In this document: positions 9,462 to 21,838 of the stretch, piece by piece
Layout of the letters: every line of letters begins with the position of its first letter
How positions within the stretch are numbered: position 1 is the first letter of the stretch
Origin: an uncultured Erysipelotrichaceae bacterium
GTDB lineage: Bacteria > Bacillota_I > Bacilli_A > RF39 > UBA660
DNA: 64,000 nt
NCBI GenBank assembly: GCA_902789225.1
Contig: CADANC010000005.1
Span: forward strand, 1-64,000
Direction of reading: 5' to 3'
Translations under genes and position numbers: made by a program
Notes under the pieces: generated by a model
The model's database searches: none
What the model saw: the letters and a program-made list of their open reading frames with translations, nothing else
Told to the model about the DNA's origin: nothing

Positions 9462-10091
9462 TTATTTTGTTCCAAAAATTCTATCTCCAGCATCACCAAG
9501 TCCAGGAACTATATATTTATTCTCATTTAGTTTTTTGTCAATATGAGCAGTATATATAGGTACATCAGGATGTTTTTCACTAACTGCTTTTATTCCTTCA
9601 GGAGCACTAATAATACATAAGAATCTAATATTTTTAACACCTTTTTCTTTTAATAAATCAATAGCATCAATTGCACTTCCTCCAGTAGCAAGCATTGGAT
9701 CTAGAAGAAATACTGTTTTCTTTTCAATATCTTTAGGTACTTTAAAGAAATAATTAACAGGTTCAAATGTTTCTTCATCACGATACATTCCTATATGACC
9801 AATTTTAGCATTAGGAATAACATTTTTAACTCCATCTAACATACCTAGACCAGCTCTAAGTATAGGAATAAATGCATAATCATTTTCATCAAATTTATGA
9901 GTTTTCATTTTAGTAATAGGTGTTTCAATCTCACATGATTTTAATTTAACATCTCTCATAGCTTCATAACAAAGTAAAGTAGCTATTTCACCAATTAATT
10001 CTCTAAACTCTTTTGTTCCTGTATTTTTATCTCTTAATATAGCTAATTTATGTTCTATTAAAGGATGATCTAGTTCATAGATATTATTCAT
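9462..10091 (-). CDS. upp: Uracil phosphoribosyltransferase
   Basis: Converts uracil plus PRPP to UMP in pyrimidine salvage, in the cytosol. The 209-aa length is normal for the family. Diagnostic segments are ILRAGLGM near residue 77, the PRPP-binding loop [10 protein letters not shown] near 131-140, and the C-terminal uracil-binding PGLGDAGDR. Its start overlaps the end of the uracil permease gene by 8 nt, so the two are translationally coupled. Uptake and phosphoribosylation of uracil are thus made together under the leader described at 11636-11794. Confidence 0.97.
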
Positions 10092-11604
10092 TTTTCTTTT
10101 TCTTCTTCTTTCTATTGTCTGAATTTTCTAGTATATAGAATTCTTTCCTAATCTCTTTTAAAATATCATCCTTTAATTCAACTGTTAATTCATCTTTTAT
10201 ATCACTTTTTAGTTTAGAATAATCTTCCTTAATACCTACAACATCTTGTACTATTGTAGCAATTGCTTCCTCTTCTTCTTTTTCATCTTTAATTATTAGA
10301 TTCAATATAATTCCTACTATAGCAGCTAAACTCATTCCAGAAATTTGTACTGATAAACCATTACCTGTTGCGATAGAAAATGCTGCTCCACCAAGTCCTA
10401 AAACTAACATAGCAGAAGCTACAATAATATTCTTATTTTTACTAAAATCAGTATTATTTTGAATTAAAACTTTCAAACCATTAACTGAAATGAATCCATA
10501 TAGTAATAGTGATACACCACCAAGTACTGGATTAGGAATTGTTTGAACTAGAGCAGTAAACTTTCCTAAGAATCCTAATATTATAGAAAATATTGCTGCA
10601 AGTCCAATTACCCAAACTGATGCATTTCTAGTCATACCTACAACTGAAGTGTTTTCACCATAAGTTGTATTAGCAGGTCCACCTAACATACCAGCAACGA
10701 ATGTAGCTAGACCATCACCCATAAGTGTTCTATCAAGACCAGGATCTTTTAATAAGTCTTTATCAATAATAGTACTTAATGCTTTATGATCTCCGATATG
10801 TTCAGCCATTGTAACTAAAGCAATAGGAGCCATAGTTAAAGCAATCATTATATTAGGCTTATAACTTACAAATGGTACATAGAATTCAGGAATTTGGAAC
10901 CATTTAGCAGAAGAAATCATACTAAAGTCAACTAATCCCATACAACAAGCAGAAATATATCCTACAACAATACCTACTAAGAAAGGTATTATTTTGAAAA
11001 ATCCTTTTGCTTTAGTCATAGTAATTATAGTTGCTAAAAAAGTAATTAAAGCAACAACAGGACCTTTCCATTCAATTCCTTTAACATTGATACTAGTATC
11101 AAATATATTGCCAACAGCACTAGATGCAAGACCTAAACCTATAATCATAATCATAGGTCCAATAACAATAGGTGGTAATATTTTATCAATCCAATTCTTA
11201 CCAGCTATTTTTATGATTATTGATACTATTACATATACAATACCAACAACCATAACACCTGTCATAGCTCCACTTATACCACCTTCCATTCCTCCACTAG
11301 ATGCTCCAGCAATATATGCCGCAATAATAGGAGATATGAAGGCAAATGAACTACCTAAAAATACAGGTGACCTTCCTTTAGTACAAAGAATATAAATAAG
11401 TGTACCTATACCAGCTGTAACTAATGCAACTGCTATAGATAAAGCATGTCCAGGTACCCCAGCAGCTGAAATACCTGCATTTACTAATATTGGAACTAGT
11501 ACTGTCGCACCAAACATAGCAAATACATGTTGAAAAGCTAATATTATCCATTGAACAATAGGTGGCTTTTCATTGATGTCATATAACATCTTTTTCTTTT
11601 TCAT
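10084..11604 (-). CDS. pyrP: Uracil permease (NCS2/UraA-PyrP family)
   Basis: About 12-14 membrane segments cover residues 20-440. Family motifs are visible: [17 protein letters not shown] (substrate/proton site region), the AEHIGDH motif in the middle of the protein with its essential Glu and His, and PVLGG near helix 12. It imports uracil with protons. The C-terminal ~70 residues are a charged, Lys/Glu-rich cytoplasmic tail, longer than in B. subtilis PyrP. The gene follows an attenuator and overlaps upp. Fine substrate choice (uracil rather than xanthine) is supported mainly by the upp linkage. Confidence 0.93.
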
Positions 11605-11635
11605 AAAAACTTCCTCCCTGAAAGTAAAAGATTAC

Positions 11636-11669
11636 AAAAAAAGAGATAGTTAATAAAACTAACTATCTC
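11636..11669 (-). terminator. Attenuator terminator in the pyrP leader
   Basis: On the minus strand, GAGATAGTTA and TAACTATCTC form a perfect 10-bp stem with a 7-nt loop followed by seven T. It lies between the leader peptide stop and the pyrP ribosome-binding site, so pyrP requires read-through. The first stem bases are part of the TGA stop of the leader ORF. Confidence 0.85.
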
Positions 11670-11742
11670 AATAACTAAGAAAAATAGGAAAAATTACTCC
11701 TACACATTTAGATTCAAAAATTCTAATCTCTTGTAGTTTCAT
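11668..11742 (-). CDS. Putative 24-aa pyrP leader peptide
   Basis: ATG at 11742 is preceded by GGGAG 9 nt upstream. The frame encodes 24 residues and ends at TGA 11670-11668, overlapping the first bases of the terminator stem. The last third is unusually U-rich (two runs of five U, transcript region 11671-11700). A ribosome at the stop would cover the 5' arm of the terminator. This is the layout of the UTP-sensitive E. coli pyrBI/pyrE leaders, where slow transcription of the U tract lets the ribosome prevent termination. The mechanism is inferred; the ORF, U tract and hairpin are seen directly. No PyrR-binding loop was recognised. Confidence 0.6.
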   Translation of the reverse strand: MKLQEIRIFESKCVGVIFPIFLSY

Positions 11743-11764
11743 AATCTTTCACTCCCTTATTAGA

Positions 11765-11794
11765 ATAATATTATAAACTAATTATAAATGTCAA
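11765..11794 (-). promoter_or_regulatory. Promoter of the pyrP-upp operon
   Basis: On the minus strand, TTGACA (11794-11789), an 18-nt spacer and TATTAT (11770-11765). Transcription would begin just before the leader ribosome-binding site. Confidence 0.65.
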
Positions 11795-19011: not shown

Positions 19012-19218
19012 TAAGAAATGCAAAGAAATCGAGGAAAGATATCTAGTTTTTAAGAGAGTTCACGTTTGGTGTAAGTGAATAAATGAAATATCTTTTGTAG
19101 CGATGGAGTAGAATTACTGAGTTTAGTAAGTAGTTCCGGTAATGCCGTTAAATATATCGAGAAGTAATTAAGGTGGTACCACGTAATCACGTCCTTATAG
19201 GATGTGATTTTTTTTATT
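19012..19218 (+). promoter_or_regulatory. T-box riboswitch for tRNA-Val (valS leader)
   Basis: The T-box signature AAGGTGGTACCACG is at about 19170-19183; its TGGT bulge would pair with the ACCA end of uncharged tRNA. A Stem I region with GAGAG and a GGTG element precedes it. GTA at 19097-19099 sits where a specifier codon is expected and is a Val codon. The alternative terminator, AATCACGTCC / GGATGTGATT then eight T, is at 19185-19217. Uncharged tRNA-Val should stabilise the antiterminator and switch on valS. The specifier assignment is by position and codon only. Confidence 0.9.
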
Positions 19219-19303: not shown

Positions 19304-21838
19304 ATGAAAGAATTAGAAACTAAATATAATCACGAGAGTGTAGAAAAAGATAAATATGATATATGGCTTAAAAATGGTTATTTTAAGTCAGATAATAAAA
19401 GTAGTAAACCACATTATTGTATAGTTATACCTCCACCAAATGTAACAGGTAAATTACATTTAGGTCATGCTTGGGATGTATCATTACAAGATATTATTAT
19501 TAGATATCAAAAGATGAAGGGTAATGATATTTTATGGTTACCAGGAATGGATCATGCTGCTATCGCAACAGAAGCAAAAGTAGTTAAAAAACTAAAAGAT
19601 CAAGGTATAAACAAATATGAATATGGAAGAGATAAATTCTTAGAAGCTTGTTGGGATTGGACTCATGAATATGGAGGAGAAATTCGTAAACAATGGGCAT
19701 CTCTTGGTTTAACTCTAGACTATTCAAAGGAAAGATTTACATTAGATGAAGGATTAGAAAAAGCAGTTAAAAAAGTATTTGTAGATTATTATAATGAAGG
19801 ATTAATCTATAGAGGAGAAAGAATAATTAACTGGGATCCAGCAGCAAAAACAGCACTATCTAATGAAGAAGTTATTTATAAAGATGTAGAAGGAGCTTTC
19901 TATCATATTAAATATTTTATTGATGGAACAGATGACTATTTAGATGTTGCAACTACTCGTCCAGAAACTTTATTTGGAGATACTGCAGTAGCTGTTAACG
20001 AAAATGATGATAGATATAAAAAGTATGTTGGTAAGAATGTTATATTACCTGTAGTTGGAAAGAAAATTCCAGTAATTACAGATGAACATGCAAATCCTGA
20101 AGAAGGAACAGGTGTAGTTAAAATAACTCCTGCTCATGACCCCAACGACTTTGAAGTAGGTAATAGGCATAATTTAGAAAGAATAGTAGTAATGAATGAA
20201 GATGCTACTATGAATGATAAATGTGGAAAGTACGCAGGAATGACTAGAGAAGCTTGTCGTGAACAACTAGTTCATGATTTAGATGAAGCAGGATTATTAA
20301 TTGATATTGAAAAAATAACTCACTCAGTAGGACATAGTGAAAGAACAGGAGTAATGGTAGAACCTTACCTTTCAAAACAATGGTTTGTTAAAATGAGACC
20401 ACTTGCTGATGCAGTATTAGAAAATCAAAAAGATAAAGATAATAAAGTAAACTTTGTACCAAAAAGATATGAAAAAGTAATGAATCACTGGATGGAAATT
20501 ACTTATGACTGGTGTATATCTCGTCAATTATGGTGGGGACATAGAATTCCAGCTTGGTATAAAGGTGATGAAGTATATGTTGGAATGGAAGCACCAAAAG
20601 GAAAAGGATGGGTACAAGATAATGATGTATTAGATACATGGTTCTCTAGTGCACTTTGGCCTTTTGCAACTCTAGGTTGGCCAGATAAAACAGATGATAT
20701 GGAAGCATACTTCCCAAATGATGTATTAGTTACAGGATATGATATTATTCCATTCTGGGTAAATAGAATGACTTTCCAATCATTAAAACTAACTGGAAAA
20801 AGACCGTTTAAAGATGTATTAATCCATGGATTAATAAGAGATAAAGAAGGAAGAAAATTCTCTAAGAGTTTAGGCAATGGCATAGATCCATTTGATATGA
20901 TTGATAAGTATGGAGCAGATGCACTACGTTACTATCTAGCAACAGATGTTGCTCCAGGAACAGATATGAGATTCGATGAAGTAAAACTAAAAGCTACATG
21001 GAACTATATTAATAAAATATGGAATGCTTCTCGTTTTACATTAATGAATATTCATGACTTGAAAAAGATAAATCTTAAAGACTTAAAAAATGAAGATAAG
21101 TGGATTTTATCTAAATACGAAAAACTAGTTAAATCAGTAACAAAACATATGGATAAATATGAATTTAATCTAGCAGGATCAGAAATATATGACTTTACTT
21201 GGAATAGTTTCTGTGATTCATATATTGAAATGGCTAAATATTCTATTGAAAAAGAATCAACTAAGTCTACATTATGTTTTGTACTTACAGGAATATTACA
21301 AATGTTACATCCATTTATGCCATTTGTAACAGAAGAAATATATAATATGTTACCTGTTAAAGATGAAGAATCAATTATGATTACAAACTATCCAAAATAT
21401 ACAAAGAAATATGTATTTGAAGATGAAGAAAGAATTGTAGAAGATGAAATAGAATTTATCAAACAATTTAGAAATGTAAAAGCAGAAAATAAAATAACAA
21501 AAGACATGAAAGTAATGTTTGATACTACAGATGATAATGAAATGATAGTAAAAATGTTAAAACTAGAAGATCATTTGGTTGATAAACCATTAGGAATGAA
21601 TGCCTACAAGGTATTCTCTAACAGAGTAAAAGCAACAATCTTCTTTGAACATATAGAAACAGTTGCTGAACAAGAATCTAAAAAACTTCTAATAGAAGGA
21701 TTAAAAGCATCTATCGCAAGAAGAGAAAAATTATTATCAAATGAAAACTATGTTAATAAAGCTCCTGCAAAGATTGTAGAAATGGATAGAAAGAAATTAG
21801 AAGAAGAAAAACAAAAATTAGAAGAATTAACAAAATAG
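19304..21838 (+). CDS. valS: Valine--tRNA ligase
   Basis: Charges tRNA-Val and edits threonine. 844 aa, a typical bacterial length (about 880). The class I HIGH motif is PNVTGKLHLGH (about 46-56) and the KMSKS motif is GRKFSKSLGN (about 522-531). The CP1 editing domain contains TTRPETLFGDTAVAV. DWCISRQLWWGHRIPAW is typical of ValRS. A C-terminal Lys/Glu-rich coiled-coil arm contacts tRNA. Its level is set by the T-box upstream. Confidence 0.98.
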   Translation: MKELETKYNHESVEKDKYDIWLKNGYFKSDNKSSKPHYCIVIPPPNVTGKLHLGHAWDVSLQDIIIRYQKMKGNDILWLPGMDHAAIATEAKVVKKLKDQGINKYEYGRDKFLEACWDWTHEYGGEIRKQWASLGLTLDYSKERFTLDEGLEKAVKKVFVDYYNEGLIYRGERIINWDPAAKTALSNEEVIYKDVEGAFYHIKYFIDGTDDYLDVATTRPETLFGDTAVAVNENDDRYKKYVGKNVILPVVGKKIPVITDEHANPEEGTGVVKITPAHDPNDFEVGNRHNLERIVVMNEDATMNDKCGKYAGMTREACREQLVHDLDEAGLLIDIEKITHSVGHSERTGVMVEPYLSKQWFVKMRPLADAVLENQKDKDNKVNFVPKRYEKVMNHWMEITYDWCISRQLWWGHRIPAWYKGDEVYVGMEAPKGKGWVQDNDVLDTWFSSALWPFATLGWPDKTDDMEAYFPNDVLVTGYDIIPFWVNRMTFQSLKLTGKRPFKDVLIHGLIRDKEGRKFSKSLGNGIDPFDMIDKYGADALRYYLATDVAPGTDMRFDEVKLKATWNYINKIWNASRFTLMNIHDLKKINLKDLKNEDKWILSKYEKLVKSVTKHMDKYEFNLAGSEIYDFTWNSFCDSYIEMAKYSIEKESTKSTLCFVLTGILQMLHPFMPFVTEEIYNMLPVKDEESIMITNYPKYTKKYVFEDEERIVEDEIEFIKQFRNVKAENKITKDMKVMFDTTDDNEMIVKMLKLEDHLVDKPLGMNAYKVFSNRVKATIFFEHIETVAEQESKKLLIEGLKASIARREKLLSNENYVNKAPAKIVEMDRKKLEEEKQKLEELTK

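Follow-up and report, generated by a model that had tools for sequence, protein, structure and literature searches.

Pyrimidine control in low-GC Gram-positive bacteria is credited to PyrR. A different mechanism operates at the pyrBI operon of Escherichia coli, where low UTP causes RNA polymerase to pause on a template that is 49% U and a coupled ribosome blocks the terminator (PMC10135430, PMC5021804). The 49% U of its pyrL leader comes with a hairpin pause (PMC10135430). In Firmicutes, leader-peptide attenuators have been inferred for histidine genes (PMC2965389). Pausing and leader peptides are also known for antibiotic-resistance genes of Bacillus subtilis (PMC12288461).

We analyzed a leader upstream of pyrP and upp in a 64,000-nucleotide stretch of DNA (the window) from an uncultured Erysipelotrichaceae bacterium. 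We consider it likely, with a probability of about 0.68, that this leader controls pyrP-upp by transcription attenuation of the pyrBI type, sensing UTP and relying on a coupled ribosome. The sequence establishes its parts: a promoter, a Shine-Dalgarno (SD) at the extreme 5' end of the transcript, an ORF with a U-rich second half, an adjacent hairpin, a stop codon in a stem, and a terminator. Sensing of UTP and blocking by a ribosome are inferred, without an experiment. To our knowledge, such an attenuator has not previously been reported in Bacillota. In the open-access literature that we searched, which did not include the main reviews, we came across neither a UTP-sensing leader in Bacillota nor a leader ORF in front of pyrP/uraA.

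The closest described system is pyrBI. Both leaders combine a leader ORF, a pause hairpin, a U-rich tract and a single intrinsic terminator without an antiterminator, and both precede a pyrimidine gene. The E. coli leader, run through the same scripts, gave the same order of hairpin, U tract and terminator as the pyrP leaders. The two also differ in several respects. The pyrL ORF runs through its terminator and stops 44 nt past the stem start, whereas the pyrP leader ORF ends inside the stem, and the last 54 nt of pyrL are only 30% T. Unlike pyrBI, the pyrP leader begins its RNA at the SD and has an SD pairing beyond the terminator, for which we saw no counterpart in E. coli. Its target is uptake and salvage (pyrP-upp), and its host is a Bacillota-type bacterium in whose genome no Rho was found. 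A visual comparison with locus L152 showed no sequence homology to enterobacterial pyrL. We suggest by analogy that the pyrP leader works like pyrBI, and we do not claim homology.

The other known systems share less with this leader. PyrR-dependent attenuators of Bacillota (RF00515) also place a terminator upstream of pyr genes, pyrP included, but the pyrP leader lacks PyrR, a PyrR-binding element and an antiterminator. The tlrB and vmlR leaders of B. subtilis are likewise Gram-positive examples in which a pause leaves time to translate the leader (PMC12288461, PMC6851288). They respond to antibiotics through ribosome stalling, however, and their NusG motif is missing from the window leader. 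The hisS and hisZ histidine leader peptides of bacilli are a further case of leader-peptide attenuation in Firmicutes (PMC2965389); they use runs of amino-acid codons, whereas the pyrP leader has U runs and no codon run.

Anatomy of the pyrP leader

All parts of the feature are encoded on the window's minus strand. The predicted promoter (11765-11794) has a -35 element TTGACA (11794-11789) and a -10 element TATTAT (11770-11765) separated by an 18-nt spacer. The transcription start is predicted near 11758, which falls at the leader SD region (11748-11757, AGGGAGUG). The spacing of -35, -10 and SD recurs in relatives. The SD itself, AAGGGAGUG, lies about 7 nt 5' of the ATG of a 24-codon ORF (11668-11742, from ATG at 11742 to TGA at 11668) that would encode the peptide MKLQEIRIFESKCVGVIFPIFLSY. 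The ORF contains three runs of five U (11720-11716, 11693-11689 and 11684-11680), two of which fall within its last 26 nt. The U tract UUUUUCCUAUUUUU (11680-11693) is the proposed UTP-sensitive pause region, a reading based on its sequence and on U enrichment in relatives. A small hairpin, UAGGA...UCCUA (11684-11704), is the proposed pause hairpin, and its counterpart directly before the U tract is conserved in relatives.

The intrinsic terminator (11643-11669) has a stem of 12 perfect base pairs, a loop of 3 and a predicted stability of -11.9 kcal/mol, and is followed directly by seven U (11642-11636). The UGA stop of the leader shares the first 2 bases of the stem. Downstream lie the pyrP SD, AGGGAGGAAG (11610-11619), then pyrP (uraA; 10084-11604), which encodes a 506-aa uracil permease (uracil permease family), and upp (9462-10091), which encodes uracil phosphoribosyltransferase. 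The gap between terminator and pyrP is about 39 nt in the window, where it holds the pyrP SD, and is usually 30-50 nt across the loci. Because this gap is so short, no second promoter fits before pyrP, and the terminator blocks the only route to the gene. No Rfam family matched the leader in the window or in 28 loci searched.

A preliminary description of the locus had claimed a 24-codon ORF with a ribosome-binding site, two U5 runs near its end, a perfect terminator and pyrP beyond. All of these held. Its two runs are those at 11693-11689 and 11684-11680, and it missed the third at 11720-11716. It also overlooked the pause hairpin, the SD's pairing with RNA beyond the terminator, and the near-leaderless 5' end. 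Its claim that the stop overlaps the start of the terminator is correct, by 2 bases. However, it had not taken into account that such overlaps are common here: stop codons overlap the terminator at 9 of 22 ordinary post-ORF terminators in the window and at 17 of 130 in relatives. The overlap of stop and stem alone is thus no proof of an attenuator. Such overlaps are a reported signature of transcription outrunning translation in B. subtilis (PMC7858274).

Conservation in relatives and genome context

We scanned one genome per species and collected 80 loci encoding PyrP relatives, with extra loci from genomes bearing the same family code. A locus was scored as having the leader layout if an SD-preceded ATG ORF of 20-60 codons had its stop inside the terminator stem-loop or no more than 3 nt short of it. 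A terminator precedes pyrP at 82 loci, and 55 of these had this layout, against 0.24 expected from dinucleotide shuffling of the upstream DNA. The 55 loci are related and do not represent 55 independent events. In a tree of 93 PyrP proteins, the leader occurs on deep branches labelled Clostridia, Clostridiaceae, Erysipelotrichaceae and Mycoplasmatota. Detection was strict, and some tree rows scored "none" are near-twins of leader rows (L054 and L046, for example). The stop lies between -2 and +26 nt relative to the stem start (median +5). This range follows from the filter that requires it, so the informative rate is 55 of 82. With an SD pattern of AGGGTGT as the query, a search of 19 genomes for the architecture at other genes found it only at pyrP.

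Aligning the leaders of relatives showed that the ORF and the position of its stop in the stem are conserved and that the peptide sequence is not. Across 58 leaders, the ORF span contains no in-frame stops (by construction), versus 254 and 127 in the other two frames. Peptide sequences differ from clade to clade, and substitutions in close leader pairs show no third-position excess. Because of these two results, we conclude that selection does not act on the peptide itself. Counting indels pairwise across all leaders gave no information, since this compared unrelated AT-rich leaders. Translation of the leader is inferred from sequence alone and is supported solely by the open frame, the SD, the start and the stop. 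One locus (L005) matches the window except for a single frameshifting base difference, and its stop is still within the stem. This locus and L004, apparently one and the same contig, were left out of subsequent tests because both nearly duplicate the window. At three further loci (L037, L045 and L048), a 1-nt shift after the U tract alters the end of the peptide, and the stop still falls 20 nt into the terminator stem-loop. Another (L017, 2761-3000) carries an extra insert before the terminator, and its ORF is extended to 52 codons and still ends in the stem.

The U-rich tract is conserved far above the level at other terminators. The last 54 nt before the stem have a U fraction of 0.516 in leaders versus 0.335 at 183 other terminators (p 1.7e-20), and T content reaches 0.5-0.6 in this span, up from about 0.22. 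Runs of T exceed a synonymous-codon null both at four or more (143 versus 118.9 +/- 6.8) and at five or more (79 versus 67 +/- 4.9). Phe makes up 11% of leader-peptide residues. The score for a hairpin followed by a U tract was 13.0 versus 8.5 in shuffled sequences (p 5e-9). RNAalifold, applied to 19 leaders, returned two helices only, the pause hairpin and the terminator, and 6 of the 17 pairs had both partners changed.

We found no antiterminator: across the loci, neither arm of the terminator has a competing partner upstream (mean z -0.23). The absence of an antiterminator points to simple occlusion as in pyrBI. A trp-type attenuator would have mutually exclusive terminator and antiterminator structures and a regulatory codon run, and both are absent. 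The fold of the terminated RNA hinted at a pairing of the SD with the U tract; we rejected this pairing, which across the loci did no better than chance (mean z +0.20).

The preliminary description had seen no PyrR loop, and this observation held. No RF00515 element and no PyrR protein above cut-off were found in 37 mostly leader-bearing genomes, and the weak PyrR matches that we tested are HGPRTases. About one third of pyrP loci have no detectable leader, and PyrR was found in just 1 of the 18 such genomes tested. A true PyrR is present in one leader-less genome (loci L049/L138), and no RF00515 element was found at either locus.

The window's genome, which is 96% complete, also lacks PyrR. 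Its only PRT-domain genes are a PRPP-synthetase-like prs and upp, and no match to pyrB was found in it. With no pyrB and only these two PRT-domain genes, uracil uptake is probably the main source of pyrimidines. The genome contains pyrG, and there is no terminator before this gene that would indicate the same device. Our scan also found the device at none of 19 pyrB loci. By eye, one pyrB gene (L111) is preceded by a possible short ORF, MKIANINKNNLIKNEKN, that stops within a hairpin (AAAAACTAGGT...ACCTAGTTTTT), and this gene could be a second target for control of this kind. Separately, pyrB promoters of several relatives (L122-L129) share an unusual start region, GTGCTAAAATAGAAAAAATGTC, about 60 nt 5' of the gene; an A tract lies near the predicted start, and start-site or slippage control is possible. 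The window also contains an ordinary T-box leader (19014-19199, plus strand) upstream of a valine-type aminoacyl-tRNA synthetase gene at 19304.

Long-range pairing across the terminator

The minimum free energy fold of the window RNA contains a 20-bp helix that spans the terminator. Its 5' partner, P (11737-11756, GGGAGUGAAAGAUUAUGAAA), comprises the leader SD and start codon, and its 3' partner, P' (11620-11639, UUUUGUAAUCUUUUACUUUC), lies just beyond the terminator and adjoins the pyrP SD, which is unpaired in the predicted readthrough fold. The whole-leader fold has a z of -4.28 and the P:P' pairing in the window a z of -4.6. Across 56 loci, P pairs with its own P' at a mean of -8.43 kcal/mol versus -7.28 with permuted partners (sd 0.26; 0 of 5000 permutations as low). 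The 5' end of pyrP shows little such locus preference (-5.73 versus -5.44 permuted). The same helix is built from different sequences at different loci (L089, L046, L034 and L032, for example), and it is weak or absent in several.

Predicted accessibility of the leader SD is 0.35 in the readthrough RNA versus 0.45 in the terminated RNA (p 0.001). For the pyrP SD, it is 0.52 with P versus 0.46 without it, a modest difference (p 0.008). P' cannot decide termination because it is made only after readthrough. We infer that the likely role of P:P' is to end further translation of the leader while leaving the adjoining pyrP SD open, or else to protect the 5' end. In the window (11604-11668) and in relatives, P' complements the SD-like leader sequence and adjoins the pyrP SD. 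Without P, P' might also mask the SD of pyrP, and the predicted effect is small. Masking of the SD by distal leader RNA has also been reported for the E. coli trp leader.

Proposed mechanism and alternatives

We propose that termination would be the default state and that a UTP-limited pause would give the ribosome its chance to catch up, because the ordinary stops that overlap terminators signal transcription outrunning translation. With ample UTP, RNA polymerase would cross the U tract and outpace the ribosome, the terminator would form, and uptake would be off. When UTP is low, polymerase would stall within the U tract, after the pause hairpin. A ribosome loaded at the extreme 5' end of the RNA would then catch up and proceed to the stop codon, where it would cover the 5' arm of the terminator. 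The resulting readthrough would turn uptake on. P' would then base-pair with the SD and AUG of the leader, and ribosomes arriving later would therefore skip the leader and find the pyrP SD open; alternatively, the helix would shield the 5' end from decay. The preliminary description had suggested pyrBI/pyrE-type logic, and the sequence anatomy supports this suggestion, with dependence on UTP and on the ribosome remaining inferences. One argument against our model is that the pause would have to restore coupling, given the runaway-type stop overlaps. The case for it rests on a combination: a near-leaderless ORF, a U tract, a pause hairpin, the absence of any second promoter for pyrP, and conservation of the layout there. 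A bolder reading, toward which we are inclined to be slightly skeptical, is that this is a convergent UTP attenuator in PyrR-less Bacillota with normally runaway transcription, and that an SD-P' lock limits leader translation to the open decision and then hands ribosomes to pyrP.

We considered four alternatives. The first is a ribosome-coupled attenuator in which NusG and a T-rich motif make the pause, as at the tlrB or trp leaders of B. subtilis, and in which the leader senses the state of translation, or NusG/NusA, rather than UTP. NusG-dependent pauses likewise consist of a hairpin with a T-rich tract after it, and many bacteria have a pro-pausing NusG (PMC12288461). The motif TT[ACG]TTT is mildly enriched in leaders (58 versus 42 +/- 5). 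However, the window leader has no match to the TTNTTT consensus, which shows no enrichment across the loci (88 versus 95), the regulated genes serve uracil uptake, and U enrichment spans all of the last 54 nt instead of one motif. We regard this alternative as unlikely.

A second explanation, also improbable, is an untranslated RNA element, either a riboswitch or the site of an unknown protein, that responds to uracil, UMP or UTP and in which the ORF is incidental. The pause hairpin, an A-rich/U-rich pairing and P:P' are real structure (leader fold z -1.57), and the lack of third-position bias in the leader ORFs would fit this explanation. Against it, there is no conserved sequence core, no Rfam match and no alternative pairing with the terminator, and an SD-ATG ORF that ends in the stem recurs far above chance.

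The third alternative is nascent-peptide arrest of the TnaC or erm kind, in which the peptide would stall the ribosome in response to uracil, UMP or another ligand. The peptides are short, hydrophobic and partly alike within clades (LLVFVFTTI, for example). However, they vary between clades without selection at the protein level, and frameshifts near the leader end are tolerated. We consider arrest very unlikely. Lastly, PyrR-type attenuation, the usual Bacillota system, acts on the same gene family at the same site, a terminator before pyrP, but the survey of PyrR and RF00515 above refutes it for the genomes tested and all but excludes it overall.

If our model of a UTP-sensing attenuator is true, the classic pyrBI logic would have arisen a second time, independently, in this leader. 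It would do so in bacteria for which ribosome-polymerase coupling is in doubt, as in the runaway transcription of B. subtilis (PMC7858274). The analysis adds a covarying pairing with a possible role in switching off leader translation. The leader is a natural, short and testable device with which to gauge coupling in reduced, uncultured gut Bacillota. The model would also account for how species that lack PyrR may control uracil uptake.
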